Source of the DNA: Pontederia crassipes
Lineage: Eukaryota > Streptophyta > Magnoliopsida > Commelinales > Pontederiaceae
Length of the DNA stretch: 64,000 nt
NCBI GenBank assembly: GCA_030549335.1
Contig: CM060196.1
Location: 73,740,139 to 73,804,138 of the forward strand
Direction of reading: 5' to 3'
Shown: in pieces, positions 23,501 through 50,500 of the stretch
Position numbering within the stretch: the stretch's first letter is position 1
Layout: every line of letters begins with the position of its first letter
Made by a program: the position numbers and the translations under genes
The notes under the pieces: model-generated
What the model was told of the DNA's origin: nothing
The model's input: only the letters and a program-made list of their open reading frames with translations
Database searches by the model: none

Positions 23501-26500
23501 AGACTGACATATAATACGTCGGGAGTGCCGAGAGCACCGACCGTAGCAGAACGAGACAGCCCCCACGTGATAATAGGCGAGCACTCCGGCCGTTAAGTCT
23601 ATGCTCCATACGCTTGATGACTAGCGTCCAACCTCTGAAATAATGTGGCGATCCAAAAGCGAAATTCCCAAGTAGGTGATCGGGAGGGTGCTGATCGGGG
23701 TATGGAGCTATGATGCACAACGGTTTGCCTCCTCGGGAACGATGCCAAAGGGGATAAAAGATTTGGCATGATTGATCTGGAGTCATGTCATCGTGCTGAA
23801 TAAATCTAGAGGCATCACGACTCAACGAGCCTCCAACTCTGAGCCCTCCATGAAGAACACTATGTCGTCCGCATACTGTAGGAGGAGGACGAGGCTCGTG
23901 ACGAAACCGCTGAAAAGGCCAACCGCACAAGAGGCCTGAGTGCATCTGATGAGGCATCAATTGCTAGCACAAAAAGCATGGAGGCCAGAGAGCAGCCTTG
24001 CCGAACACCTCTCTGTAGCTGGACCCACTCACTCACCATCGCCCCGAACCAGGACCGAAAAAGAAGCAATGGTGATGCACCACTTCATCCATGCGATCCA
24101 GGTCGCTGAGAAGCCTCTAACCCGAAGGGCATGCCTTAGAAAGGACCATGACAGAGAATTGTAGGCTTTGGCGAAGTCAACCTTCTATAGGAAGGCCTGG
24201 TAGGTGGTCAACCCCCAATGGCCAATGATCTCAGATGCAATGGTGTAACTGTTAGTCCTGGATAAATGTTGACCGGGCCGGGTGTATCAGATGTGGTAAC
24301 ACCTCACGTAGCCTATTCGCCAAAACCCGAGCCACCAAAAGGTAGATGACATTGGATAAGGCGAAGTCCTCAACTCCCTCGGCCGAAGTGTGCTTCGGGA
24401 GTAGGAATAGCAGGAATCGGTTGAGGAGCTGAAAACCTCAATTCCCCTCGGTGAACTCCCAAACAATTGTGCATACATCATCTCGCGCAAGCGGCCAAAA
24501 CTCCCGATAGAAAAGACTGGAAAACCATCAGGGCCAGGGCCGCATCCGCATTGAGGTCCTGAAGGGCCTTAGAGACCTCATCTAGTGAGCATGGATGTAC
24601 CAACAATGAAGACTGTGCATCAGTAAGTCGGGGAATGTCTCCAGGGGTCAACCGCCAAGGTCCCAGTGGTCGTCGTCGGTATGTGGCTCAGAAGTGAGAT
24701 GTGATGAAAGCCCCGATGTCGTGTTGTCCAGTGACCCGCTAGCCCTGCACCTCGATCGGCTCGATCCTATTAACCCTCCGTCGAGAGCTCGCATATAAGT
24801 AGAAAAACCTAATGTTGACATCTCCCTCCTCAAGCCAGGTCTGCCCGGATTGTTGCCTCCACTGGTTTCCACTATCCGGTCCTCCAACTGGATGGCCGCC
24901 TGTGCCTGTTGACGCTCAGCAATCTCAGACTCTAAGAGGTGGTGGGAGTCCTCCATGCAATCCACCCGAGCAATGAACACCAGAGCATCCGTCCTACGAT
25001 GCGCCCGATCCTCGCAGATCTGCCAGCGGTGCTGACATAAGGTGTGTAGGCTGGTCAGGCAGGGTGCTAATGTTCTAGCTGCCGACTCAGAGGGGGCCAC
25101 GCGATGCCACTACGCCTCGACTAATTGACGGAAGCAATCCTCCAAGAGCCATGATCTCTCGAAGCGAAAAATGGAGCCTGCCTCTGCTCGTCATTGGACC
25201 GCCACAAAAGAGGGGTGTGGTCCGAGAATGGCCTGTCTAGGGCCTGGACGTCAGGCAGCTGGTGCGCCTCTGCTAACTCCAATGATCCGAGGAAACAGGC
25301 AAATGGTGCTACTGTACTCCTCCATGTGAATCTGCAATTGGTGGCCGGGTGATACGAACTGAAAATACAATTAAAATAAAACTAGGATAACTATTATTAG
25401 TAGTAAAAGTGCAAGAATCTTAAACACAATTACCAATAATAACTTGTCAATTCGAGATGACAAATTTTCATAAGACCGTATGGAGTGGACCAAACTCCAA
25501 TTACATAATTGATCAACACATTTCAAAGGCTTCCCTAAATCTAAAACCCATGCATGTATTTATAACATGAAAAGGTAGTTACAATAACAACAACAACAAC
25601 AACAACAAAGCCTTATCCCACTAGATGGGGTCGGCTACATGGATCATAAGACGCCATTCCACTCTATATTCGTCGATCCATGTTCATGAGATTCGACAGA
25701 GTTTTACGCTGGCTGTCGGGGCCTAACACAACCCTCCTCCTTTATCCGGGCTTGGGACCGGCTATAAAACATAGGCGGAGTTTTGAATTTGTCATCCACG
25801 AGTAGATGAATTTGTGTTGAATCCATCATCAACATAAAGGGTGCAGAAAATTGTCACAATTCTCTTTGATCGCTTAGAACTTGATTCTCTATTGTCACTT
25901 GCTGCACTATCATCGACCAAGGACCAAGTCACACATTTTTTCTTTCTCCATTGATCCAACCTCCTCTTTGGCAAGCACTAGAAACCAACATCTTTTCTTT
26001 TCTTGACTCTTGGTTTGAAGGTAAATGGTTGCAGGAAGGGGATCACTTGGTGCCCCCTCCCACATGCATCTGCTATCGCTCATTGTTTTCTCCAACAGAG
26101 GCAGGATGCTTGGGTCTGGATAGTTAGGACAAGTAGGCAGAATCATATTTGATCCAAAGGCAAGCAATTCCCCTTTCCATAGAGCTGCAGATGGATCGAA
26201 GAGGTCTAGAACTCAGTGTCATGTGAAGAGATGAAGCTGTGGCAGGATGATCCTGTACATATGAAAGCACCCAAGTGAGACTGAATGATGAAGCCAATAG
26301 CCCCAACTTCCTCAGGACCGAGGAAAGACCAGTCCAGGTTCAAAGATAACCAACCGTGGTTCTCCCATTGGAACCAAATTTGGTTGCATGAGAAAGTCTC
26401 TCAGAACAATGGATACTAACATCTTCTCAAAAGATGATGTCAATCAGGGTCGATTTGAAGCAGAAGTGGGGTTGTTGCCCTTGCTGAAACTACCGACTTC

Positions 26501-29500
26501 TTTGGACCTTTGAAAGCTTTACTATTGGGCTATCTTTTTCCTTAGAAGTATTATTAGACTATCTTCAGTGAGGTGAATCGTGCTGCGGATTTTTTGAGGA
26601 GCTCCACTTGCTTATCCATGTAGTGACGTTATTTCAAACAAAATGGTGTAACCTTGAACCACCATCTTGAGAACTCATACTTTGAATTAGGTGATGTTAT
26701 TGTTAGTAGGCTAAAGAATGCAGTAAAACTCTAAGTCTATCATCTGGTACCTTAATTCTTGGATCTACATCAATGCATGTGGAGAATAAGATTGTTTTTT
26801 TATTGTAGACAGAAAAATCCATGTTACAGCTAACTACACAATGTCAAAATAACATCTCAAAACTCATGATAATGACAGTTTATAAATTATGGATTGGGAC
26901 ACTAGAACATAAATAGTTCCTCTCTTTTTCCTATAACATCTAGACTTCCAAACTAATCCTATAACCTATGGACTTCCAACAAGAGAAAGAGCATAGAATT
27001 AACTGAGACATACCAAGATTGACATTTTTAAATGGGCTTCCACTAGCAAATACAATATTTTCACCCAGTACAGAGAAGGCTTCTTCAGGAGTACATTCAG
27101 CATTTTTTGTTGTAGTTACAATAACTATAACAAAAATACAAATATAACTAACTACCCACAACTTTCTTAACCAGCCACTAACTAAACAAAGTGGCATCTT
27201 TTAACTACCCACTACTTAATCAACCAGCCACTAACTAATACAAAGCGGTATCTTATCAGTACACCCCTCCTAAATTTTCGCCTTGTCCGCAAGGTGGAGA
27301 AAAGAAAATGAATCCTCCAGACTTGATAACTCCATCATTGAGCCAAGAGAGGAATTTTTGAACCAATATGAACTTCCAGCTTTTCTTCTTATAAAATGAG
27401 CTTTCACTTGTAATATGTAAAGCTGATTTCTCCTGAATGAATACTACTTCTGACGCAGCGGCAAGGAATTCGATATAGAAATTTAAATAAAGCCAAGAGC
27501 AAACCCTAGGCCCGATAAACGGTGTTCTATTACACCGTGCAGGTAAGCCTCTGGTACGCTTGAAAGAACTGCAAAAATCAAATGTCGATGTCGCCGGTTC
27601 AAGCGGACGATAATCGACAAATAAACTAGCAGGAATCCACCAGCACCTTAGAAGAAATCCAAGGTCAAGATCGTGCGCACACGAACTCAGAAATTCAGAA
27701 ACCTCTGAACTGGAACTTTAATTAAAGAGATAAAGATGTTTTTAACTCTTACAAGTCAGATCAATATGTAGCAATAATATTAGTATTAGGACTCCTATAG
27801 CAAAAGGAAAATACAATCCCATCAGCATTAAGACTCTTATAACCTAACAGAAATAAACTAATAGGAAATAACAATCCTAATAGCATCAGGACTCCTAAGA
27901 AAATAAACTAAAAAGGAAATAACAATCCTATCAGCATTAGGACTCCTAAGAAAATAAACTAAAAAGGAAATAACAATCCTATCAGCATTAGGACTCCTAA
28001 CATATTCTTCAAATCTGAATCAAACTAAGTTGATGACCACTAAAATTCTGTACAGCAGCAGAATTCTCTCTTTTCTTCTCAAAAGGATCTACATCAGCTT
28101 CTTTGTGCTTTGCTACAAGGATCGAGCTCGGATGTGTCGTGAATCACCAAGTGGGGGGCTGTCAAAACTTAATCGTCTAAAATCTTTGACACGATTTTGG
28201 CTATCGTTGATTAATAGGGATCATATCATAATAATGATCAACTCTTGGCTGATGCTGATTAGTAGGAAATCATGTCATAATAATGACATTAATCAGCTAG
28301 AATTAATTAGGTGGTTGATTTGTTGGCTCATTAGTTATTTCAATATTTTCTGTTTCCTTAATTCTGTTACCTTTTTTCTTTCCTAAAGTAGAGACTGCTG
28401 TAATAGTCTATAAAAGGAGCCAATGAATAGAGAAAAAACAATCTCATCTTTGCTTCAGAAATTCACATATGTTTATAGAGTGGATTCGCTAGTTTCAAGC
28501 ACCAGAATTCTATTATGTGCCTTTCTTGGATAGTACTTCGGGCTATCCTCGTATCCTTTTATCTTCCTTATTCTCATTAGATCCTGGTGCTACGCCAATT
28601 GGTATCACAGCATTGAGAATAATGGTAGACAACCCTACGCGTGCCGAGTTCGACGAGATGAAAGAGACGCTGCAACGCATCCATGAATCTCTCGAGTTAC
28701 TCTGGCACGACCATGAAGAGCGAAGACCCCCTTGTCGGGCCCAAGCCATTCGACGCCCCGCTGATAGTGACGATGACGCTGATAGCCCTCGTCCACGTCC
28801 GCGGCCTTTGCCTTTGTCAGGAAAAATTTCTCTTCCTCTTCCACGTGTAGCAAGTGCATATACATCTGTATGAGGAGAGAAATCATCAAGACGAGAAAGC
28901 CGAGCATAGATTTCTTCAGGGGTCGGAATAGTTTCCTGTGTCATCAACTGATCCTTGACCAATTTATATTCAGGACCACGACCTGAGAGAAACTGAACGG
29001 ATCTAATTTGATCACGTTGCTCTGCCAACACTTTGATATCAGCAGAAAGAGGCTGATAAATGTCCTGCTCATTCGAGAGGTTAGCCAATGTCCCAAAATA
29101 ATTTGCTAACGGCTAATCATTTTTCTTGCATGATTGGATTTCTTCAAGGACCTTGTAAAGGTGAGATATATTGCCTTTATGAGAGTGAAATTTTTGAAGT
29201 ACCTCCCCCTATAAGCCATGACCTGTGTGGCATCAGATTCGGTCATGCTTGAGCATGACAGAGGCAACCCAATCATTGTCAGTCTTCTGTACGTTCTTCA
29301 GATTTGGTGAGGATATGCTTCTCTTCCCGTGGGATCCTACATAGCACTCAAATGTCATGGACCAGAGGAGATAATTGGTACCATCAAGTTTGAGGTTGAT
29401 ACCGAGTGGGGTGGGGGTGGGGTGGGGGTGGGGGGGGGGTGTTGGTTGGATTTAACACCGGAGTTGCTAGATTCAGCTTTATGATCGGCCATGGTTGAGC

Positions 29501-32500
29501 ACGACGGATTCCACAGAAAAAAAAAGTCAAGCCCCGATCTTTAGAACTATGGACATGGTGCGGTGAGGGAAGTAGGAAAAAAAAAGGACGGAAAGGAGGA
29601 GAGAAGAACGGTGATCAGATCGTTATTGCTCTGACACTATGTTGAGAAACATGTGTTCTCTTATTATTCACCAAACACTAGTGCCTCCTACTTATAATCA
29701 AGGTCGGCAATACAAGAAGAGAGAATATGCTAAAATATTACTCCAAAAAATCAGGGATATTTTTCCAAAATATCTGAGATATTATCCCAAGAAATCTGGG
29801 ATACTAATCCTAAGTAATATTACAAAGACATGCCTAGATATGAAGGATATGCAAAAATATGCAAATCATATCTCAACAATTTGTTATCCTTGCCGCCATG
29901 CAGGTCATCTTCCACAGCGAGCTCCAATTCATCTTACTCAAACTAATGAGGTTGATCATCTTCCTTCTGAAAATGATGAAGAAGAAGAAGATTGTGATGA
30001 AGAAATAGTTGCTAAATACCCTAATCATGAGGGTGAGCGCCTCTCTTATGTGGTTCGTAAGTTATTGTTTACTCCCGAGCATGCCGACCCATCTCAGCGG
30101 CATCAAATCTTTCGAACTGTTTGCACCATAAACGACAAATTATGTGATGTTATTATCAACAATGGGAGTTCAGAAAACATCGTCTCTACTATCGTGGTTC
30201 AAAAACTAGGGCTGGCCACAGAAAAACACCATGTTCCATACAAAATAGGGTGGATTCGTAGTGGTACTGACATGAAGGTGACTCAAAGATGTCAAGTCCC
30301 TTTCTTTATCGGTCGATGAAATCATTTGTAATGTGGTGGACATGGATGCATTCCATATCATCTTGGGACGTCCTTGGCAATTTGACGTAGATGCCAAACA
30401 TCTTTGCCGTGATAATATTTATTCCTTCTCAAAGGATGGGCACCGCATCAAATTGATGCCCCTTGTTTCTGAAGATAAAGTGCATCCATCAGCCAACTCT
30501 CATCCAAATCTTTTGATCACAGGAAAAGTTGAATTAAACACAACTATGAAATCTGCTGGGCTGTTTTGTGCTCTAGCCATCAAGGATTTCACTCAACCAG
30601 CTATTTCGTCAAGTGATCCATTGGTGCAACAGCTTGTTCAGCAGTTTCAGGATCTCTCTCCTGAAGATTTGCCTCCTGGCCTTCCCCCAACATGTGACAT
30701 TCAACACAAAATTGACCTGATTCCTGGAGGTAACCTGCCTCGTTACAGGATGAGCCCCAAGGAACACCACATTTTGCAGCAATAAGGGATACATCCGCGA
30801 GAGCCTAAGCCCTTGCTCTGTCCATGCATTACTCGTCCCTAAGAAGGATGGCAGCTGGCGGATGTGCATTGACAGCCGAGCCATCAACAAGATTACTATT
30901 AAGTACCGTTTTCCTATCCCTAGATTAGATGATATGCTTGATATGCTGAATGGATCTTGCATCTTTTCAAGCTTGATTTACGCAGTGGCTACCACCAAAT
31001 TCGAATTGTTGAAGGCGACGAATGGAAAACAGCCTTTAAAACTAAAGAGGGGCTTTATGAGTGACTTGTGATGCCATTCGGTCTCTCCAATGCACCCAGC
31101 ACTTTTATGCGGCTGATGACTCAAGTTTTGAAGCCATTCCTTGGGCATTTCGTCGTCGTTTATTTCGACCACATCCTCATCTATAGTCGCAACCAAGAAG
31201 AGCACCTGCAACACCTAGAAGAAGTGTTGACCATCCTTCGGCATCATAAATTGTTTCTCAACCTAAAGAAATGCAGCTTTGCTACTAACCAACTTTTGTT
31301 TAACTTTTGTTTTTGGGTTATATTATTAGTGCTACAGGCATATCTATTGACTCCTCTAAGGTACAAGCCATTGTTTCTTGGCCATCGTCACCATTAGCGA
31401 AGTTCGAAGCTTCCACGGACTGGCCACATTTTATCATCGTTTCATACGTGATTTTAGTAGCACTATGGCTCTTGTCGACGCAATAATGATGCTAGCCATA
31501 TTGCTGCACTCTTCTTCAAGGAGATTGTTCGCCTACACGGCATTCCCAAATCGATTGTTTCATATCGTGACACCAGTTTTTTATCTCACTTTTGGCGTCA
31601 ATTATGGAACAGGTTCACTGTTTTGAACTTCAGTACTACTTGTCATCCACAAACAGATGGTCAAACTGAGATGGTGAATCGCTCTTTGGGAAATCTGATT
31701 CGTGCAATCTCTGGTGACCATCCTAAGCAATGGGACACAGCCCTTCCCAGGCTGAATTTGCCAACTCTATGGTTAATCGCTCCACTGTTCGGGCCCCTTT
31801 TGAAGTTATTTACGGCCGTTTGCCTCGTCAAGTTGCAGACATTGTTTCAGCTTACCCGATTTCCACTCCTCTTAGCAACATTGATCAACTTATTGCTCAG
31901 ATACAAGATGTACATTGCGCCACTCACAAACATCTCCAGGATTCTAATGCAAAGTACAAATCTAATGCTGATCACCGTCATCGCCGACAAGTTTTTGAAG
32001 ACGCAGACCTTGTTCTAGTCTATCTTCCCAAAGAATGTTTTCTTGCTGGTTCTTATAACAAGTTGAAGAACAAGAAATTTGGGCCTTGCAAAATCCTGCG
32101 CAAGATTAATGACAATGCCTATGTTGTTGCTTTACCATCTGCGTTCGGGATTTCGGCCACCTTTAATGTTGCTGATTTGTTCAAATACTACTCACCAGAG
32201 GACTCCGGTGAAAGCTTGAGGTCGAGCTTTGTCCAAGAAGGGGAGACTAATGTAGGATACTCCACAAATCCTGACACGATTTTGGCTATTGCTGATTAAT
32301 AGGGATCATATCATAATAATGATCAAATCTTGACTGATGTTGATTAGTAGGAAATCATACCATAATAACTAATCAGCTGGAATTAATTAGGTGGCTGATT
32401 TGTTGGCTCATTAGTTATTTCAATATTTTTTGTTTCCTTAATTTTGTTCCCTTTTTTATTTCCTAAAGTAGAGACTGTAGTAATAGTCTATAAAAGGAGC

Positions 32501-35500
32501 CAACGAACAGAGAAAAGACAATCTCATCTTTGCTACAAAAATTCACATATGTTTATTGCGTGGATTCGCTAGTTTCAAGCACCAGAATTCTATTATGTGC
32601 CTTTCTTGAATAGTGCTTCGGGCTATCCTCGTATCCTTTTATCTTCCTTATTCTCATTAGATCCTGGTGCTGCGCCACTGAACTAGAACCACAGCAGGTG
32701 ACTTAATACTTAAATGAATTGCGGTCTAGTACTAGAGAAAAAGTAGAGATGTAGACTCCTAGCACCATGACCATTGCAATAACCTTGGCAGAAACTGCTG
32801 AACATCAACTAGAACCAGCAGCCAAGGCACAATTTCATTCTACTAACACTAGTAAGATGGTAAGTGAATGTAATTCATCAAAATTTCCTGAAATTGAAAA
32901 GGTTGAAAGTGCGGACAAAAGTTAACCAGCAAGCTCTAAATCAAAAACTGCAGGTGTTGATAATGCTGAGGACTTCAAACTCGTATAAGAAGTCCAATTC
33001 TATTGTTTGCTATCGTTGATAGGCCATCGATCAAATGAGTGCCCACGACGACCAGCACTCCATTCCGCATGGATAATAGAGGATGAAGAAGAGATTGATG
33101 ATCAAGAGGCTAAAGATGAATATGACATTGAAGAAAAAACCTGCGCTGATCAGGGTTGTGCAATGCCTAGGAAAGAAGAGGACCCTTCGAGACATGAATA
33201 TTCCAAACCCATTGCTCAGTGAAAGGTAAACTTTGCAAAGTCATTATTGATAGTAGGAGCTCGGAAAATATAGTTTCACAAAAAGTGGTGGACAGATTGG
33301 GGTTGAAAGCAGAACCTCATCCTTCACCACATAGAGTTAGTTGGATTAATGAAGGCACAAACAAAGAAGTTACAAAATTGTGCAAGTCTCTTTCACAATT
33401 TTCAAGAGTTGGTCACCTCTGATGTATTGGATATGGATGCAAGCCACATCATCTTGGGTCGACCTTGGCAATTTGATGTTAATGCAACCCATCTAGGCTG
33501 GAGATAATATCAACAAGTTTTCTAAAGATGGAAAATGCATCTCTTTATTACCATTACCGCATGATTCAACAACCAAAGAAAACAGCTTCAAGAATGTCTA
33601 GTTGATTGAACAGATGCGTTCATTTCTGAAGTAAAAGAAAGTGGAGAAGCTTATGCACTTGTGTGTGCATTGGAGAGGTTTCTCCAGATCAAGAACACAC
33701 TAAAGTGGCAATCCAAAAGTACTTTCAGAGTTCAAAGATATCACACCTAAAGAATTACCTAATGGATTACCTCCTATGCAAAATATGCGACATCATATTG
33801 ATCTAATACTAGGTTTGAATCTTCCAAACTTTCCCCAGTACGATTAAGTCCAAAAGACCAAGTGGATGAGTTAATAAAGAAAGGATTTGTTCGAAGCTGA
33901 ATGCATCGGTCATCTTAAAGAGGCTTTGACCATACTATGCTAACATCAACTCTATGTTAATCTCAAAAAATGTTCATTTGCCATTGATCAACTACTTTTC
34001 CTTGGATTTATTATTAGCTATCAAGGTATTCAGGTGGATCCTCGAAAGATGCAAATGATCCTATCATGGACGAATCCAAACTATCACATAGGTTCATAGC
34101 TTTCATGGATTAGTCTCGTTCGCTCATTCATGATTTCAGCAATTTAATGGCACCAATAACGGCTTGTTTAAAGAAAGGGAAGATCCAATTCGCGATTATC
34201 AAATGAAAATTTAACAAGTTCACCCATTTAGGCACTGCCCGACTTCGAAAAGGTAGTTGAAGTGGAGAGGATGTTTCCATTCATGGAATTGGTGTTGTGC
34301 TCTGACAAGAGAGTTGTCCTGATGCTTTTTATAGTGAAAAACTTAATGATGCAAGACAAAAATGTGCAACTTAGCAATTGGAATTATACACAACTCTCAA
34401 GCATTGGGAGCATTATCTCATCCAAAGATCACGAGGATTTGAAACACTCTCAAACTCAAGCCACTATCAGCCAAATGCATGGTAGGTGGGTACAATTCAT
34501 GCAATGATTCACTTACGTCATCAAGCATAAAAGTGGAAAACTAAACAAGGTGGCTGGTGTACTTAGCTGACGAACAGAGTTACTTGCCACACTTCAAGTT
34601 GAAGTAATTAGATTTAAATCTTTCAAAGATCTATATGATATTGGTGAAGATTTTAGTACCAATTGAAAAACCTATTTTCACAACCATTTAGCCATGGGAT
34701 TTCATGTTGAGGATGGCTTTTTGTTTAGAGGTAATCAACTTTGTATCCCTCAGATCCTCTTTGCGAGACAAGATTGTTCAAGATTTATGGTTTAGGCAGT
34801 CATTTTGGCGGGGATAAAACAGTGGCAGCTGTAAACATCGCTTCTTTTGGTCTCAACTTAGGCGTAATATTGAGAGATTTGTAAGCCGATGTCAACTCTA
34901 TCAAGTTTCTAAAGGGCAATCACTGAATACTGGATTACATTCCACATTGCCTACTCCAGAAGGCCCTAGTGTCACGCCCCATATGTGCAGGATGTCCTGG
35001 GACATGGCGGACGCCCGGTTTGGCGGCCACGTCCGTTCCAGGACATGCTTTGGATCATCCCAGGAGCACCAGTACACTGCAGACGACGAGGAGGTCGTCA
35101 GGTCGTCAATCTCTTACGAAGAGGACCGGAGGCGGTTATGGCGGCAAGGTAGTTACCGGCGGCGGTTATGGCGGTGAGGTAGTTACCAGCGGCAGTTATG
35201 ACGGCCAGGTAGTTATCGGCGACCATCGTGACGAGAAGGTAATTACATGTGGCAGTTACAGGTGGCAGTTACAGGTGGCGGTTACAGGCGGCGGTTACCG
35301 ACGTGCGCATCCGCCATGCTATGGCCACGGAGTGTCCAGACGTCAGGGACGGAAGACCATTGAAGTCAGGGGTCAGGAGGACGCCTTGACAAGTGTTCGG
35401 GACAGTCGGTTATGTCCTGGACGTCCTTGGGACGTAGGGTGCATAGGCGGTGCGCCCCAACGCCCAAGTTGGCAGTTACGCGCAGTGACTGTCCCGGGGC

Positions 35501-38500: not shown

Positions 38501-41500
38501 GGTACTGCTGAGTCTCGCAGGGTACCCTGAGGCCGAGGTTGCTACTGTGGCGGCAGCAGCTGTGTTCAGTACCTCCCATCGCAGCCGCCAGACCCAGAAA
38601 CCAGCCAGCTGACAGGTGACCTCTCACCACCCATTGCAGCACATGTTGGCTTGCTCTCAAGTCATCTTGATGCAGAGATCCTGACCGGCCCAAAATGAAC
38701 CTGTGTCCAATTGTTTCAGAACTTACATCCGCGAAACCAACCTCAAACTCCACACCCCAGCCCCACCCATCGGAATCCCACAACCACGGCGACGACCATT
38801 GATGCATGCAAAATACAACATATTTTAGTTAATTATTTTAATTAAATTTTCTGTAATTTGATCATGGCATGCATCATTTTTAGTCACTTTTAATCATAAT
38901 TCCGGATTTATCAATTTTAATTATTAAATTCTCTGAATATTTTAATTGTGGATGGATTAATTAAATTTTGATAATTATTTTGCAGAAAAATCGAGATTAA
39001 AATGGATTGTGCTGTATCGGCCAAAATTTCAAAGAATTTATCATTACGACCGAGATTTGGCTTTACACCCAAGTCGTTACGGCCGAGATTCAAAAGGAGT
39101 AACAAGTTTAAATTCTTTGTTACGGCCGAGAGTTAAAGGGGGTAAAGATAAATGGAATTTTATCTTTTGGGCGTAATGGTATGAAGATGAAGATGTTACG
39201 GCCGAGATTTGGAGGGGGTAATGGCAATGAAATCATCCGTTTGGCCGATATATGAAGGAGTACAACAACAACAAAGCCTTATCCCACTAGATGGGGTCGG
39301 CTACATAGATCATACGACGCCATTCCTATATTGTTGATCCATGTTCATAAGATTCGACATGATTTTATGCTGGCTGTCGGGGCCTAACACAACCCTCCTC
39401 CTTTATCCGGGCTTGGGACCGGCTATAAAATATAGGCGGAGTTTATGTCATATTATCAATCTGCTGCGACAATTCTCCTGTGTTTAGCTACTGTTAGATA
39501 GAAAAATAATACTTATATAATGACTGGAAAAAACAATAGAAAAGTGATAAACTCAACCTATTTGACTATTTCCAAGACCCAGCACCTCCTAAGCTATTTG
39601 AGACAAGGAAAAAAATCATGTTGAAACCTTCCTAACTAAGATAGAACCTGTCTGTCTAGCCAATGTAACGAGATTCAACGGATCAATCCGTATGTGTGTG
39701 CGTACCTTAGGAACTTGCCACGAGACTCAGGCCAATTCTCTGAGCCCCTGCTGTCAAATGGTCTGTCGTCCTTCCTATCTTTCCTCTTCCTTCCTTGACT
39801 GCCCTTTATTTCTCCAACTCCTGTATTCCTCACCCTCACACTTTTCGCACCGGATTCTTCGACAGTATCAGTGACTAAGAACTTGAAGTGCTTCTTGAAG
39901 AAGTTATGGACTTCCTAAATAGCCAAATATGATCGAAAACCCAATTTGTAGGAATTGGAACATAACAATAAATGCATTCAAATTTTATGACCAACCGCTC
40001 TGTGCGACTTATCGGAATCGGGGGACAGAACAATTGGCCTGATATCACTTTCAGCAGACGAAATCTTCTGCAGCAGCAACCTCAAAGCTTCTGTGTCTGT
40101 CTCGCCGCACAAAGTTCCAAATGCTTCGAGCTCCAAGGCATAATCTTTACGATCAGAGGACGATTCCACTTCTTCTATCTCCACCTTTTTGTCATTGCCA
40201 TCTTCCAATTCTTCTACTGTTAAAGGAGTAAAGATAAAATAATTTCCTTACGGCCGAGACTCTAAGGGAGTAAAGATAAAAAGGATTTATCTTTGGGCGT
40301 AATGATAAAAGGATTTATCTTTGGCCGAGTTTATCTTATAATTTTAAAGTCAACCGTACGATGTTACGGCCGAGATCAAATTGAAGGTCATCCGCACCCT
40401 ATAAATACGTGAAGAATCCGTCGTTTCAATTCGTGCTCTGAAGTTCAGGTTTCTTTCACGGCGAGTCGTGAGCTCTGCAGGCTACGACCAAGAGGAGAGA
40501 GGTGCGACGGCTGGAGGTTGATCGCGACCCTGATCAAGTCCGAGAGGCTGCCCGACTGTCTGCCCAATTCGAGAGCTCTACTTCTATTTTGGGTGTAATT
40601 CTTTCGATTATTATTGTTATTTTGTTATTATTTCTCCAGAATTTCTAGGATGAACTCCATGTTTTTAGGATTATTATTTTAGGAGATTATTAATTGAAGG
40701 GAAATGTTTGGACCCTATTTTATTTGCTTTAATCTTTTCTAATCAATTATTAATTGTGCTTAATGCTTTTATGTTAGTTAATTAAATTTCTGAATTAGGC
40801 TATACCAGTTTGTGGAGTGTTTAATTTCAGAATTTATTATACTAATTATAATTGATTTTATTTGGAATTAATAATTGACATAAATTTGATAACTAGTGTG
40901 TGGAGAATCAAGTTTGTGTGGTCTATTAATCTATACCAATTTGTGGAGTGATTAATAGTTTAGATAATTCAATTTAATGCATCTTAATTTTAATATGATT
41001 TTGGGAGTACCAGTCGTGGAGACTTCAATTCTTATTAAATTAAGATAGTTCTATATGATTAGATTGAGGGATGCCAGTCGTGGAGACCACAAGTTAATCA
41101 TGTTAGATTACTTTAGGGAGACTCTAATCCATCTTTAAAGATTAAATTTATCTTTCATGGTTCAAATATTTATCCTGATCTATTTTCATCCTAAGGCCTA
41201 ACTTCAACACCACTATCTTATCTTTATCTTATTTTCTTTATTTTATTTTATAAAACCTCTTTCCAAAAATCCATGTTTTTCTTCTCTTATAAATTTATAA
41301 ATTCAGATATTGAATTAATAATATTCCTCGTGGGTTCGACACTCTTACTCCTATTACTATATTACTTGAGCGACTAGTGCACTTGCTAGCAAATTTTATT
41401 GTTACAAATACAACGCATCAACCACGATGGATTCTCCTGTGACCCATTTCTAATGCACATGAGCCAGGAGGTGTGTCCGCTCTCTGTCCATCCACAGCAG

Positions 41501-44500
41501 CATTGCCTGATCTCCTCCTCCCCTCAACCATCTCCCCACCGTTTCCTGCAGAGGGGGTTCTGGACAGATCCCAGGTGGCAAACAGCAAGGCCTCCCCGCC
41601 CGAGGGTCCCCTTTTCCTCTCCATGGCTGGCGGCACTGCTGATTCTCGCAGGGCAGCCGGAGGCCGAGGCTGCTACTGTGGCAGCGACAGATGTCTTCCG
41701 CGCCTCCTGTTGCAGCGTCAGACCCAGAAACCGGACAGCTGACAGGTGACCTCTCACCACCCATTGCAGCGCATTTTGGTCTGTTCTTGAGCCAGCTTGA
41801 TGCAGAGATCACTTCTGCAATTTCAGGATGAGCATCGGTCTCTTTATGAAGGTTCTCACTTGGAACGTGTAGGGCTTCAGGGAGATGGTGTAGCGCTAGA
41901 CCCTAGGCCGTTACTTGTGAACATAGGGGCCGGACATCATCCTGATACACGAGACCACACTAACAGAATACAGTAATCAGATGTAGACTCAGATTGGGGA
42001 GTCTCGTATTACAACGCACATAATCCTCAGGTCGATTGGCTGCTCAGGGGGTTGCATTATTAGCTGGCACGCTGACCTCTTCGACGTGATGGACTTCTGG
42101 ACAGACAGGTTCTCCATGACAGCTCTCCTTCGGCACAACCACCAGTATCTTTTGTCCTACGTCTATGGACCATCCTCAGCATCCTTGCATGACATTTAAT
42201 GGGAGGAGCTCTGCCCGCCAGCTCCCACCAGCCTGAGGCATATCGGTTTATTGGTGGCTCCCGTCAGCTCTCAACATGGACAATTGATCTATTGTGAGAA
42301 GCGGAAGGGAATTGGGTGCAGATGTCTTTTGGGACTTCATTGAACTTCAATAATTAATCAACTTTCCGGCAACAAATTGCATATTCACCTAACGAAATTC
42401 TGGGGCTCCCTAGAGTTAGCAAAGGCCTATCGGTTGGCAAGGGTTCAGGTGACGAGGCAGTCTTCATACCACAACCCCTTATGTGCTACTCCAATGACTG
42501 ATAGCCAAGTGCTTGATCATTCTTTTTGAGCGCTCCTGTCTCCTTGAGGAGGGTCTCAGACATTAGGTGGTGGAGCACTAGCACAGCGTCGTGACCTCCA
42601 ACTTGCAACCAAGGGCAGCCAGGCTTGCGAGCCTTCGGGAGTTTAGTAGAGCTCATCATCGACGGATCCAGAAGAGCACGAGCAACAAGTGGATTGAAGC
42701 GTTTGCGGCCATCTCGAGAATAGACCAGGTGGGGAATAGCTGAGACATCATGCGGTCGAGGGGACCGAGGAGTTGGAAACCAAGTGGAGGCAACACTCGA
42801 CGCCAATACGAGGTTTTTCCACCTACGTGCGAGCTAGAGGAGGCAAACCATCAGGAGTAACCATCTTGAGGTGCAGGGCAGTTGGTATCTGGCTCTGCAT
42901 TTCCATTGCATCCTATTACAGGGAGCTCCTGAAGTGGGACACACTGCCATCTAAGCAGAGATTCAAGAGATTCACTGTGGGAGTTCCTCATTTATCTGAT
43001 GACCATCTATCCATCTTATCATAGAAATTCACAGAGGCCACGCAGGCACCACAAGACCGGAATAGTGAGGGCTCTCCAAGGCCCAATAGCTTTCCTATTT
43101 TCTTCTACAGGAAGATCTCTCCGGTTGTTCGGAATCAGGAGGACACGTTGGCCATCATACACGAGTTCACTGATGAGAACCAGGGCTTCAACTCAGCAAA
43201 CTCCAATGAAGCAGATCAAGTACTTCCAGCCCATCACCGTTTGCCAATGCCATATGCCTCATTGTGACAAGGGTCTTGGCGAACAAACTGAGAGGTGCTA
43301 GCTGACCTTGTGCAGTCAACTTTCATAGGTATTGCTCCATCGTTGACTGCTACAGTGCTACATTATTGCCTGTGAGATCGTCGCAGCTGGCGGCATTACG
43401 TCCACAACAGATTGTTATGGAAGGTAAATTCCTCCAAGGCCTGTGACAATTCGTGGCACTTGTTACAAGCTGAAGGCTTCCCATGACTTAGATTTCAAGA
43501 ATGAAGCATTGTGTCTCGGCGTCCTCATTTTTGGTTTTGGTCAACGGGGCTCCCACTGGGGGATGGGTAAAGCCACAGTGAGGAGTACACCGGGACTGCC
43601 TGTTTGTTCTGGCAGCCAATGTACTTGCCAAGTGTACCTTCTTGGCATGCGAAGCAGGCATCATTGCAGGGATTCTCTCCCTGGTAGACCTCAACAAGTC
43701 TGATTGCCCTGATGCAGTACGTGGACAATACATTGTTCTTTATTGAGGGCTCCAACTCAGCAGCATGGAGGACAGTCATTCTGGTGGCATTAGTATGGGT
43801 CATGCCAGGCCCCAGGATTAACCACACCATCATTCATTCCCTTTGGCATGACAGGAAATGAGGCGACGTGCTGCGCAGAGGAGCTCCGGACATCAATCAG
43901 CTCATTGCAACTTACATATTTGGGCCTCCCCACATTGACTGGCGAGGGTGGATGCCAGCCATCAAGCACATGGAGCATAGACTTCAGGGCTGAGGTTCAT
44001 GACTTCTCTTGCAGAGGGGCCGATTGTTCTTGCTGAGATCGATTATGTCATCCCTCCCCACCTACAATTTTACAGATGCCTAGGTGGTCGAGCGACGACT
44101 AGACGTACTAAGTAGCTTCTTTTGGCAGGATTTTAGCACCAAATGATTAGGCATGTCCTTGGTCGCCTGATCGAGCATCTGTCATTCCACATGCTATGCA
44201 ACGAACTTCCAAATGCTGATCAAGTAATTGTCGATTACATATTTCGGCCCCCACTCTCGGACGTCGCATTAGCTCTTCGGGGGTTGGACACCAATCATCA
44301 AGAGGATGGAGCACAAACTTCAGGGATGGAGTTCACAACTTCTCTCGCAAGGTGCCAACTGCTGTGATCGGCACTGCCATCCCTCCCTGCCTACTACATA
44401 ACCACTCTACAGATGCCTGCGATGGTGGATCGGCGATAAGGCGCACTATGGACAAGCAGGGTTATGGCACCGCACTACAAGGCGTACACTTGGTCATGTG

Positions 44501-47500
44501 ATCGAGCATCTGCCATCCCAAATCTCATGGTGGCCTTGGTGCATGTGACCTTCTATGCACGAATCGTGCCCCACTCTCGCGGTGGGTCGAGCGGATCATG
44601 GATGTAATTGAGGATTTATGGAGCAAAGTCTTGTTTCCGTGTTATGACAAGGATCTATCATGGGAGTACTCCAGAGTGCACAGCATTGTGCAAGCTCAGA
44701 ACAAATTGCCACTTCATTTGGAGATCCCAAGTACTCCTCAAAGTCCAATTTTTCACTCTGCTAATGAGGCGTAGTAGGATCCTCACTCACGCTTACTGTG
44801 TGCGATGGACATATCATGTTACATGTGTGGCAGGGACTTCGCGCACCTATTTTTCGATTCTGCAATCACCAGGGAGACCATGCGATAGATGTGCATCATT
44901 GATATAGATATTGCTAGTGTTGAAACCTTTTCACACTCAATGATAACCCTTGATAAGCAAGACAGCTTGTGTTGAAGGTGGCTATTAGGAAGTTCATGGT
45001 GGATACAAGGGCCATTTGAGTTTAGCCCTGCCGAACGATGTCATGAAAAGAATAGTGTACACCATGTTATATTTATAATTTGAGAGTGGGGCTTCAGGTG
45101 ACTTCTTTCAGGGAGTTCCACCACAGGCAGTTGATACTTCTTGATATGCAAATAAAATGTATAAAACCAAAATCCCGAACAGTTTTTGATCAAAAGATCA
45201 AGTGGTGGCAGTTAAAGGGGGAGAAGCGAGAGACTTTTAGAAGTAAGTTATTAGAGGAAAGTGTGTGGGAGTTAGAAGGAGATGCTAGTATCATGTGGAA
45301 GAATGTGGCAAAAAAGGTTGAAATGGTTGCTAAAGCCATTTTAGGAGAATCAAAAGGTTTTGGACAACGAGATAAGGAGACTTGGTGGTGGAATGAGGAG
45401 GTCCAAGAAAAGGTGCGTAATAAGAAGAATTGTTTCAAGGCGATACACTTGGACAATAGTTCTGACAATTGGGAAAAGTATCGTTTGGCGAAAAGGGAGG
45501 CTAAGAAGGCAGTTAGTGATGCTCGTGCTAAAGCATACGAGGGGTTTTATAAGGAGTTAGGGACAAAGGCGGGTGAACAAAGGATTTACAAGATTGCAAG
45601 GAACAAAGAGAAGGAGTCGAGAGATTTGGATCAAGTAAGATGCATAAAAAATGAAGTTGGCAAGGTTTTAGTTACTGAAGGAGATATTAAGAACAGATGG
45701 GAAGAGTATTTCTATAAGCTATTTAATGATGGATGTGAAGGTTCGCGTTGTGATTTGGAGGACTTGACAGTTAGCGAATGTGAACTTAATAGGTCATTTT
45801 ATCGTAGAATTAGAATCTCGGAGGTTAGCGAAGCTCTTAAGAAAATGGAGAATGGTAAAGCCGTTGGACCGGATGGTATACCGATTGAAGTTTGGAAATG
45901 TTTAGGAGAAAAAGGTGTGTTGTGGTTATGTAAACTATTTAATGAGATTTTACGGTCGAAAAAGATGCCTGATGATTGGAGATTAAGTACATTAGTTCCT
46001 ATTTACAAAAATAAAGGGGATATTCAGAATTGTGCAAATTATAGAGGGATTAAACTTATGAGTCACACTATGAAATTATGGGAAAAAGTGATTGAGCATA
46101 GATTGAGAATGGAGACTAGTATTTCTGAGAGACAATTTGGGTTCATGCCAGGAAGATCCACTACAGAGGCGATTTATTTACTAAGGGGGATGATGGAGAA
46201 GTATCGAAGTAGGAGAAGAGACTTACATATGGCTTTCATTGACTTAGAGAAGGCGTATGATCGGGTACCAAGGGATGTACTTTGGAAAGCCTTGCAAAAG
46301 AAGAGGGTGAATGTTGCCTACATTAAGGTAATACAAGATATGTACGATGGGGCATTGACTAGGGTTAGGACACCCGGAGGTGAGACAAATGAATTTCCTA
46401 TAGGAATTGGCCTACATCAAGGATCAGCTTTAAGCCCGTATCTATTTAACTTAGTTATCGATGCTATAACCGAGAGTATCACAGAGGAGGTACCTAAGTG
46501 CATGCTATTTGCGGATGATATAGTACTTTTAGCGGATTCAAGAGAAGAGATTAATACAAAATTGGAAATATGGAGAAATACGTTGGAGTCAAAGGGTTTT
46601 CGTTTAAGTAGGAATAAAACAGAATATATGCATAGCAATTTCACAAATAAACAACTTAGAAACGATTTGAAAGTTAGGTTAGGGGAGGATATAATTCCTC
46701 AAGTGACAAAGTTTAAATATTTAGGATCAATTGTAAGACAAGATGGTGAGATTGATGACGATGTTAATCATAGAATTCAAGCTGGTTGGTGTAAGTGGAG
46801 GAAAGCCACTGGAGTTCTTTGTGATAGAAAGGTACCCAATAAAGTTAAAGGAAAATTCTATCGTACTGCTATAAGGCCAGTAGTGTTATATGGTAGTGAA
46901 TGTTGGGCTATGAAGGGACAACATGAACGTAAAGTGGGGGTAGCCGAAATGAGGATGTTGAGATGGATGTGTGGTCATACAAGATTAGATAAGATTAGGA
47001 ATGACCATATACGTGAACGAGTCGGAGTGGCTCCTATTAGTGAGAAAATGGTAGAGAATCGTTTGAGATGGTTTGGTCATGTTCAGAGAAGACCATTAGA
47101 TGCGCCAGTAAGAAGAGTAGATCAAATAATCTGGAGTCCGATTAAAAGAGGAAGAGGGAGGCCAAGGCGGACACTTGGCGAACTAATAGAGCAAGATCTA
47201 TTGGTGAATAATATACCGAAAGGTTTGGTTACTAATAGAGCGGAATGGCGTCGTATGATCCATGTAGCCGACCCCACCTAGTGGGATAAGGCTTTGTTGT
47301 TGTTGTTGTTGTTTCCCAACTACACTTGTAAATTTTGATTTAATACTACGTGGATATCTATCACAAACTTATAGACATCATTCCCTTCAAAAAATAATAA
47401 CAATAACAAAAAAAGTCTTCCATGCCACAGGATAAACATGAGTAAATTAAATTATTAATATAAATCTCAGAGCTAAAAGGCAAAATATCTTACTAGCATT

Positions 47501-50500
47501 GTTTCTCCTTCACCGGAATCAGTGAGAACATGGCCAGTCATCAATAATAGCCAGTAGAGTTCTTCTTGAGTTTGCGTGAAATCAGTCTTTCCTCCACTCT
47601 GTTGACAATTTTTACAAGTATCAGCGACATCTGCATAATAATAATGCAAGGAAGCATAAAAGAAAAAATTAGAAAGCCAAATATCTTGCTTCAACCACCT
47701 GCAAATGATGATTTTTACCCGAATACCAGGATTCTGGCTTAAATGGCAAGCGTGCCTAAATCTACCTTAATGTTTGTCAAAATTTGTCCCAACATGGTGA
47801 AGTTCATATCAAGGTTTAGCAACTAGCTAGAGATTGCTCAACCCGGCAGTGGTCCAGTTCAAGGTTAATTTCAATGTCATTGGTCATGCCAGGAAAATGG
47901 GCTGCACAACCAAACTAGGAAATCTTACCCAACACTCGTTAGATAAATATTGTTCACCATTGAGTTGTGCATGAAAATGGTCTGCGTGGTACTAACAGTA
48001 GTTTAGACGATCTATATATGGCATGAATATCCATAAGAAGATTATACAATGAATCAGCATGACAAGAATATTGTAGACCATATCCCTTTTTTAAGAAAAA
48101 ATTGATTACTGAGATTGAGTAGTCATCAGCTTTGTATTAGAACTCTAAATCCATGAAAATTTACAAGTGTTTTCTGTAAAATCAAATACCCAAAAAAAGG
48201 GCCCAAAAGAAGCAAAGGAGAGGTTGTCAGGGTGTGAATACCCTCAATACAAAACTATCCGTAGAGGGTGATTTTCTGATACTGTCAGCTGCCTCTATAT
48301 CCTACAACGCATGAGTGAACTAACCCCATAAGAATACTCGGGTTTTTTTATTTTTCTTATTTCTTGATATGAAGTACAATTTTAGAGTACAATTTCAACG
48401 CATTCTGCGAGCTTGTGTCTTCTGGAGTACAATTTCCTCAAAATCGTCATGTTGTTACACCTGAAGTACCTGATCCAAGGGTCCAAATGGAAAGTATGCT
48501 CACTGACAAAACCCACCTCCAGAAATATGAAAATGGTGGATATGAAGCATCCGGCCAGCTCATAGTTAACTCAAGGTACGAGATTCTGTGGTCATTTTCC
48601 TTATTCCCAATTATAGTTCTTAATGTTAGAAGGAACATTTTGTGATCTGAAACTTGAAAATGTCAAGTCGACAATGCAATAATCTTTATTGTCTAAGATT
48701 GGAATACCAATCCAAACTCCGCCTATGTTTTATAGCCGGTCCCAAGCCCGGATAAAGGAGGAGAGTTGTGTTAGGCCCCGACAGCCAACGTAAAACCCTG
48801 TCGAATCTCATGAACATGGATCAACGAAACGTCGTATGATCCATGTAGCCGACCCAACCTAGTGGGATAAGGCTTTGTTGTTGTTGTTGTCGTCGTCGTC
48901 TTATTTCTTGATATGCAAATGAAATGTATAAAACCAAAATCTCGAACAGTTTTTGATCGAAAGATCAAGTCGTGGCAGTTAAAGGGGGAAAAGCAAGAGA
49001 CTTTTAGAAGTAAGTTATTAGAGGAAAGTGTGTGGGAGTTAGAAGGAGATGCTAGTATCATGTGGGAGAATGTGGCAAAAAAGGTTGAAATGGTTGCTAA
49101 AGCCATTTTAGGATAATCAAAAGGTTTTGGACCACGAGATAAGAAGACTTGGTGGTGGAATGAGGAGGTCCAAGAAAAAGTGCGTAATAAGAAGAATTGT
49201 TTCAAGGCGATACACTTGGACAATAGTTCTGACAATTGGGAAAAGTATTGTTTGGCGAAAAGGGAGGCTAAAAAGGCAGTTAGTGATGCTCGTGCTAAAG
49301 CATATGAGGGGTTTTATAAGGAGTTAGGGACAAAGGCTGGTGAACAAAGGATTTACAAGATTGCAAGGAATAAAGAGGAGTCGAGAGATTTGGATCAAGT
49401 AAGATGCATAAAAAATGAAGTTGGCAAGGTTTTAGTTACTGAAGGAGATATTAAGAACAGATGGGAAGAATATTTCTATAAGCTATTTAATGATGGATGT
49501 GAAGGTTCCCGTTGTGATTTAGAGGACTTGACAGTTAGCGAATGTGAGCTTAATAAGTAATTTTATCGTAGAATTAGAGTCTCGGAGGTTAGCGAAGCTC
49601 TTAAGAAAATGGAGAATGGTAAAACCGTTGGACCGGATGGTATACCGATTGAAGTTTGGAAATGTTTAGGAGAAAAATGTGTGTTGTGGTTATGTAAACT
49701 ATTTAATGAGATTTTACGGTCGAAAAAGATGCCTGATGATTGGAGATTTACATTAGTTCCTATTTACAAAAATAAAGGGGATATTCAGAATTGTGCAAAT
49801 TATAGAGGGATTAAACTTAAGAGTCACACAATGAAATTATGGGAAAAAGTGATTGAGCATAGATTGAGAATAGGGACTAGTATTTCTGAGAGACAATTTG
49901 GGTTCATGCCAGGAAGATCCACTACAGAGGTGATTTATTTACTAAGGGGGATGATGGAGAAGTATCGAAGTAGGAGAAGAGACTTACATATGGCTTTCAT
50001 TGACTTAGAGAAGGCGTATGATCGGGTACCAAGGGATGTACTTTGGAAAGCCTTGCAAAAGAAGAGGGTGAGTGTTGCCTACATTAAGGTAATACAAGAT
50101 ATGTACGATGGGGCATTGACTAGGGTTAGGACACCCGGAGGTGAGACAAATGAATTTCCTATAGGAATTGGCCTACATCAAGGATCAGCTTTAAGCCCGT
50201 ATCTATTTAACTTAGTTATCGATGCTATAACCGAGAGTATCACAGAGGAGGTACCTAAGTGCATGCTATTTGCGGATGATATAGTGCTTTTAGCAGATTC
50301 AAGATAATAGATTAATACAAAATTGGAAATATGGAGAAATACGTTGGAGTCAAAGGGTTTTCGTTTAAGTAGGAATAAAACAGAATATATACATAGCAAT
50401 TTCACAAATAAATAACTTAGAGACGATTTGGAAGTTAGGTTAGAGGAGGATATAATTCCTCAAGTGACAGTTTAAATATTTAGGATCAATTGTAAGACAA

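Follow-up and report, generated by a model that had tools for sequence, protein, structure and literature searches.

The window analysed here, a 64,000-nucleotide stretch of the Pontederia crassipes genome (C14:73740139-73804138; 1.13 Gb in 43 contigs), holds three insertions of one architecture, in which exon pieces of a host gene are followed by a GT splice donor, intron sequence and a common short module with a (TTG)n tail. They lie at 25589-27111 and 39263-40222 on the minus strand and at 48372-48898 on the plus strand. An earlier note on this DNA had described this arrangement, with perfect and mutually different target-site duplications (TSDs) of 14, 8 and 17 bp, a different donor gene for each insertion, and a module sharing its ~60-bp 3' end with the local long interspersed elements (LINEs) of the RTE type; all of these points were confirmed in the sequence. 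The module is a complete non-autonomous mobile element beginning with a match to the twister ribozyme, and the insertions very probably stem from partly spliced host pre-mRNAs in which it was embedded.

Insertion 1 (25589-27111) is bordered by the exact 14-bp TSD GTAGTTACAATAAC at 25575-25588 and 27112-27125 and consists of NAD-malic enzyme exon pieces, a retained intron and the element, which occupies 25589-25782 (minus strand, by module alignment) including its (TTG)n tail. The exon at 27014-27100 (minus strand) has an open frame, 33 residues long including the preceding piece, whose translation matches Pfam Malic_M (E 4.9e-7); the GT donor follows directly at 27013-27012. The preceding piece, 27101-27111 (minus strand), represents the last 11 nt of the upstream exon, fused to the exon that follows, the 68-bp intron of the donor being gone: the donor gene reads AACAAAAAATG at the exon end, then an intron running from GTTCGTAAG to TTTTGCAG, then CTGAATG, and insertion 1 reads AACAAAAAATGCTGAATG. 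The donor (L056) is an NAD-malic enzyme gene on C14, 3.2 Mb off, whose matching intron contains the element, set between copies of GTGGATGACAAA. Insertion and donor are 99.6% identical over 1514 aligned columns, element included.

Insertion 3 (48372-48898) has the exact 17-bp TSD TCTTATTTCTTGATATG at 48355-48371 and 48899-48915 and is made of exon pieces of a VHS/TOM1-like gene, a retained intron and the element (48715-48898, plus strand, by module alignment, with its (TTG)n tail), the copy from which the earlier note had defined its module. The exon gave a weak VHS match (E 0.016, under the Pfam cut-off), and we take the gene to be TOM1-like. The 18 nt at 48400-48417 (plus strand) are identical to the end of the upstream exon, which in the donor is separated by an 11,996-bp GT...AG intron from the open exon found here at 48418-48575 (plus strand), as established by translation and by alignment with L032-L036; the GT donor is at 48576-48577. 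The outermost ~28 bp of the 5' edge (48372-48399) were not assigned to the gene, repeat AGTACAATTT of the following exon and look like filler formed at the 5' end of integration. The donor, L033 on C8, is 97.9% identical over 477 bp and carries the element in the matching intron with its own flanking duplication, ATTGGAATACCAATCC; the related copies L035 and L036 are empty at that site. Two further daughters, L032 and L034, contain the same exon-intron-element unit between their own duplications (GTAGTTAG and GTGCATTAAAACTG, respectively), so that a single donor accounts for three insertions differing in their duplications and 5' ends.

Insertion 2 (39263-40222; 8-bp TSD AAGGAGTA at 39255-39262 and 40223-40230) comprises PUS7-like exon pieces (Pfam PUS7L_N 6.8e-7), one apparent internal PUS7 intron that was kept, the element-bearing intron and the element at 39263-39443 (minus strand). 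The last 13 nt of the upstream PUS7 exon are at 40203-40215 (minus strand), with a 93-bp intron gone, and 7 bp at the 5' edge were not assigned to the gene. A search of solved structures with the PUS7 exons gave no match. The 29-mer spanning the junction between host part and element, sought with up to three mismatches, has three matches in the genome, all of them exact: insertion 2 itself, L060 and L061. The latter two have duplications of 15 and 16 bp, and no identity was found for the ~390-bp 5' part of L061. A further, unrelated repeat, at least ~180 bp long (query 595-777), is present in the PUS7 intron of another copy of the gene, L048, and recurs at eight other genomic places including L054; in L048 and L054 it runs on past the junction without the element.

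The element and its 5' end

The genome was searched with two module sequences, and the best 40 hits of each search were scored, from 2,835 and 1,675 first-look candidates, figures that are not copy numbers. From these 80, 67 copies were read, 30 from the first query and 37 from the second (the window copy, donor L056 and C8:41583333 being left out of the latter); the sample includes insertion 3 (L001) and is biased to copies resembling the two queries. The module has a consensus of ~173-178 nt plus the (TTG)n tail, is short, non-coding, repeated and TSD-flanked, and its three window copies align pairwise at 87.5-92.6%. With a calling threshold of score 10 or higher, a duplication adjoined the element in 48 of the 67 copies, compared with 4 of 392 mismatched flank pairs used as control. 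In 45 of the 48 it abutted the element, at a distance of no more than 8 nt, and 42 of these 45 abutting duplications ended between -4 and +1 nt from AACTCCGCC, the AACTCC boundary. Three copies (L012, L019, L026) have 10-34 additional bases between duplication and element, which in L019 include an element-like fragment. Thus, the module is a complete non-autonomous mobile element, mostly stand-alone among the copies read. The shared 3' module of the earlier note is therefore no passive 3' tag but a whole element. Two of the 48 copies, L003 and L011, are nested in other copies of the element, both at the same internal target GGCCCCGACA.

The 3' end relates the element to the two RTE-type LINE copies of the window, which are in direct orientation. 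Copy 1 (45135-47310, plus strand; its stretch 45143-47281 scoring Pfam RVT_1 at E 2.1e-37) shares its last ~64 bp with the element (96.9% over 64 bp); copy 2 (48902-51069, plus strand) is 97.1% identical to copy 1 and has its reading frame broken into several open reading frames. Over both copies, the last 61-64 bp of the module are 96-97% identical to the LINE 3' ends. The clade name RTE rests on the earlier note and on the (TTG)n tail. The common 3' end and the tail suggest that an RTE reverse transcriptase mobilises the element, and copy 1 is a candidate source of that machinery. Insertion 3 lies directly against copy 2, its right TSD overlapping the start of the RTE similarity.

The 5' end matches a self-cleaving ribozyme. 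Rfam twister-P1 (RF03160, gathering score 67.2 bits) was matched over the first ~55 nt in all three window copies: at 25728-25787 (minus strand; 59.0 bits, E 9.7e-11; predicted cleavage 25783/25782) in insertion 1, at 39389-39448 (minus strand; 66.3 bits, slightly under the gathering score, E 7.6e-13; predicted cleavage 39444/39443) in insertion 2 and at 48710-48769 (plus strand; 56.9 bits, E 3.9e-10; predicted cleavage 48714/48715) in insertion 3. Copy L004 scored 64.1 bits (E 1.4e-14), and 20 out of 20 further copies, picked from 37 short loci, matched as well, with 47.3-68.1 bits (E<=2e-8); E values across all of these copies range from 2e-8 to 1e-14. The whole model was covered in 19 of the 20, and L070 begins at model position 8, with positions 1-7 missing. 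A genome search for the twister scored 62 of 68,074 first-look candidates and all 62 matched, being counted as twister places and not as element copies; no match was found in 14 control genomes. The twister cleaves at the U5-A6 step (PMC5408937), and in full-length alignments this bond coincides with the first base of the element. A twister at this position would explain the invariant 5' boundary of the module, and the element may be able to cleave itself out of a longer transcript. In L035, a gene copy of the insertion 3 family, the element (L035:2131-2309) is without its first ~8 nt, predicted cleavage site included, and the chimera derived from it, L036, is 2.2 kb long and unspliced.

A head of the usual kind for a short interspersed element (SINE) was not found. 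Apart from two weaker overlapping matches of the twister's clan, no other Rfam family matched L004 at E<=5, and the consensus has no convincing A or B box for RNA polymerase III (no A box near the 5' end, and a B-box-like string with two mismatches), so that neither an internal Pol III promoter nor a tRNA-, 5S- or 7SL-derived head was detected in this search and consensus. For this reason, the element is called SINE-like. Identity with the Au SINE was considered and dropped, as Au-like SINEs are described as terminating in poly(T) (PMC3747384).

Donor loci and splicing of the templates

An important question was whether the donor genes carry the element in the intron at which the chimera joins it. 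In 11 chimera families the donor locus has the element at the junction in seven, one is ambiguous and three are without it. Besides L056 for NAD-malic enzyme, as the earlier note had predicted, and L033 for insertion 3, the element-carrying donors include L027, a WRC-domain gene whose element has a 21-bp abutting duplication and whose daughter L028 matches it at 99.8% over 869 bp (the L028 upstream exon was not found within ~15 kb of C16); a VAC14 gene at C9:23003880, donor of L023; and C2:42185927, encoding a PHD-like zinc finger, which according to the match coordinates alone is 98% identical to L110 across the junction. Two more pairs were found by homology to the window insertions, their daughters lying outside the copy sample: L035 gave L036, which has a 12-bp duplication (L033 is empty at that site), and L049 gave L050, with a 17-bp duplication (L048 is empty there). 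These seven families support the earlier proposal of a 5'-transduction from introns bearing the module.

Long insertions were sought among the copies without a neighbouring duplication, 17 of the 19 being searched 1.2-1.5 kb upstream (L095 and L099 were left out). Six of them, L001, L023, L028, L103, L108 and L110, have perfect distal duplications of 14-24 bp, where the best of 30 mismatched pairings reached 11 bp. Shorter duplications, with 11 bp in L105, 10 bp in both L022 and L030 and 9 bp in L104, are no longer than those of the control, and no TSD was found for L051, L101, L102, L106, L107, L109, L006 and L014. L101 and L102 have 956 bp in common at 99.8%, ending at the element tail. Chimeras therefore make up at least 6 of the 67 copies read (5 of 66 without the query copy).

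The host parts of the window insertions match other loci at 99.6% (insertion 1, 1514 columns), 99.5% (insertion 2, 760 bp) and 97.9% (insertion 3, 477 bp), which excludes chance. Introns of 68 bp (insertion 1), 93 bp (insertion 2), 11,996 bp (insertion 3) and 815 bp (L023) are gone exactly at their GT/AG borders, and L023 diverges from its donor at another upstream exon edge as if a further intron had been lost, although the exon before its first located exon was not located in the donor. In L110, the ten gene-like relatives listed all start at query base 23, as expected of an exon edge. The intron bearing the element was kept wherever its GT was readable (insertions 1-3, L023, L103, L110), and the GT donors are present both in the window insertions and in the donor loci. 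From removed and retained introns together it follows that the templates were pre-mRNAs at differing stages of splicing. The earlier note had supposed that unspliced pre-mRNA was copied: this holds for the element-bearing intron but not for the upstream intron, which was removed in all three window insertions. It had also assumed pre-mRNAs terminating in the module; reverse transcription could instead start internally, at the module's 3' end.

Precise intron removal implies an RNA intermediate and, for the spliced cases, excludes duplication at the DNA level; together with the new, exact TSDs, this is what a 5'-transduction should leave behind. A segmental duplication of gene fragments that happened to hold the element might be suspected from the several near-identical relatives of some donor genes (L048, L049, L050 and L051; L033, L035 and L036), yet two of these relatives, L036 and L050, are chimeras in their own right, flanked by target duplications. 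Moreover, the perfect duplications are at the insertion edges, the chimeras read end at the (TTG)n tail, and homology to the donor or other loci breaks off at the edges or no more than ~45 bp from them. By the splicing, such a duplication is ruled out for insertions 1-3 and has next to no probability as a general account; as a refutation of the earlier note's proposal it failed. Partly spliced retrocopies are a known class, and the chimeras could be semi-processed pseudogenes of the ordinary kind, for which an L1-type machinery had copied poly(A) mRNA and in which the element was there by coincidence. This is very improbable, since the chimeras read have the (TTG)n tail of the element, with its RTE-like 3' end, as their last sequence instead of poly(A), and break off at the element instead of at the 3' end of the gene.

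Apart from the element and the RTE copies, the window contains repeats at 92-94% identity at 28187-28597 and 32272-32677 and at 56715-57046 and 57319-57648.

Probable exon transduction, possible template jumping and related systems

We regard it as very probable that the chimeras arise by 5'-transduction at a leaky ribozyme. An element lying in sense orientation in an intron would be transcribed within the host pre-mRNA from the host promoter. Where the ribozyme cuts, an RNA starting at AACTCC would be freed and copied as a solo element, its 3' ~60 nt presumably recruiting the reverse transcriptase of the RTE LINE. Where a partly spliced pre-mRNA is engaged uncut, copying would start at the element's 3' end, run back through the retained intron and past the 5' splice site into one or more upstream exons already joined, and the chimera would integrate with a target duplication. 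The competition between cut and uncut RNA would then decide between solo copy and chimera. A wider claim, that this promoterless, ribozyme-headed element uses host pre-mRNA as its normal precursor, each sense intronic copy being a potential exon donor and the race between self-cleavage and reverse transcription setting the genome-wide rate at which exons are dispersed with their 5' splice site intact, appears rather more likely to be right than wrong.

Several observations weigh against the leaky-ribozyme transduction. The gathering score is reached by only 3 of 24 copies (L004, the window copies and the 20 further ones, all three belonging to this last set) and exceeded at 12 of the 62 twister places of the genome. 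The stem P1 is imperfect, with mispairs in two of the three window copies; in the element it would need to pair with the host flank upstream, and we attribute the low scores to this pairing with arbitrary host sequence. P1 is described as dispensable, a twister without it cleaving at near the wild-type rate (PMC5408937). Copies without an abutting TSD averaged 0.86 mismatches in the ribozyme core (n=22) and copies with such a TSD 0.64 (n=45), no clear excess, so a damaged ribozyme is no predictor of a chimera, and the idea that damaged ribozymes seed the chimeras is unsupported by this comparison. Nor did conservation of the ribozyme segment differ significantly from that of the mid-segment (p 0.48), so that a stronger constraint on the ribozyme is not supported. 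Splicing is not universal, L050 and L036 retaining upstream introns, and the C9 donor element has no evident target duplication in the stretch read. L108 is ambiguous: a paralog on C6 (95%) has the element with a perfect duplication, at a junction 6 bp off that of L108, and a closer one on C5 (98%) is empty. Finally, three families show no element at the junction in the nearest locus, although their matched part agrees with it at 99.5-100%. The nearest PUS7 copy to insertion 2, L048 at the PUS7 locus C8:55874986, is 99.5% identical over 760 bp and empty at the junction, so the PUS7 donor with the module in its matching intron, expected by the earlier note, is not seen in this assembly; L103 agrees at 100% over 137 bp with the locus C14:31089324, which is empty; and L101/L102, as far as the match itself goes, follow C11:46162882 at 100% over 730 nt up to 31 nt before the element, these 31 nt being filler in which a scrap of the element seems to be present and which looks like template switching.

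These three families, the L101/L102 filler and the element-like fragment between duplication and element in L019 are what template jumping would predict: the enzyme copies the element RNA to its ribozyme-made 5' end and then switches to an unrelated, partly spliced host RNA, so that the donor intron needs no element. As the general explanation this is unlikely, although not negligible. In seven of the 11 families the donor locus carries the element at just this junction; at least three donor elements (L056, L033, L027) have duplications of their own, and several have an empty paralog. The insertion 2 junction, exact in three separate insertions, would hardly result from independent jumps, and the empty loci are explicable by alleles outside this assembly. 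The element-carrying donors rule out jumping as the sole mechanism; it is retained as a minority route, in which the enzyme may leave the element RNA at its 5' end and continue on a host RNA.

In human SVA, a MAST2 exon was joined to the element by splicing, and the spliced form multiplied through L1 and poly(A). The element described here, by contrast, remains within a retained intron, has a (TTG)n end and a link to RTE, draws on several donor genes and has the predicted ribozyme cut site as its boundary. The likeness is to the SVA 5'-transducing groups, in which a non-autonomous element takes along host sequence from its upstream side as a 5'-transduction (PMC13317346). According to a 2026 review, no 5'-transduction had so far been reported for plants. 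A 2020 review announces, as 'in preparation', truncated but catalytically competent twisters at the 5' ends of RTE retrotransposons (PMC7761336), and twister variants are named in non-LTR elements of Schistosoma mansoni (PMC11620745). As in those, the 5' end of an RTE-linked element bears a truncated twister, which is proposed to free the element's RNA from an upstream transcript; here the twister heads a non-autonomous element of ~180 bp, and its bypass is linked to the capture of host exons. Schistosome SINEs likewise combine a motif of the self-cleaving class with a short non-autonomous retroelement, but the motif is a hammerhead and not a twister, and exon capture is unmentioned in the accessible part of that paper (PMC11620745). 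The TS SINE of tobacco with RTE-1_STu (PMC3747384) is, when compared by description only, a plant SINE with a (TTG)n tail and a 3' end in common with an RTE LINE; the element here differs in the ribozyme match at its 5' end. In R2 and other LINEs with HDV-like ribozymes, the 5' end is also set by cutting from an upstream transcript (PMC7761336), though by another ribozyme and in an autonomous element. Plant retrozymes are promoterless, ribozyme-bearing and non-autonomous and are thought to rely on read-through transcription (PMC4918200; PMC7761336), but they are of the LTR type, with hammerheads and circular RNA, whereas the present element combines one twister match with a LINE-type 3' end. 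A twister-headed SINE or a ribozyme-linked exon transduction was not found described in the open literature searched, which lay mostly outside subscription papers and bioRxiv.

For P. crassipes, this means that donor, empty-site paralog and several daughters coexist in one genome, the daughter copies being splicing intermediates frozen in DNA. The dispersal of exons thereby becomes testable, through genome-wide counts of donors and daughters and through the ratio of solo copies to chimeras against ribozyme activity. The findings also suggest a role for a plant twister ribozyme, that of setting the 5' end of an RTE-linked element.

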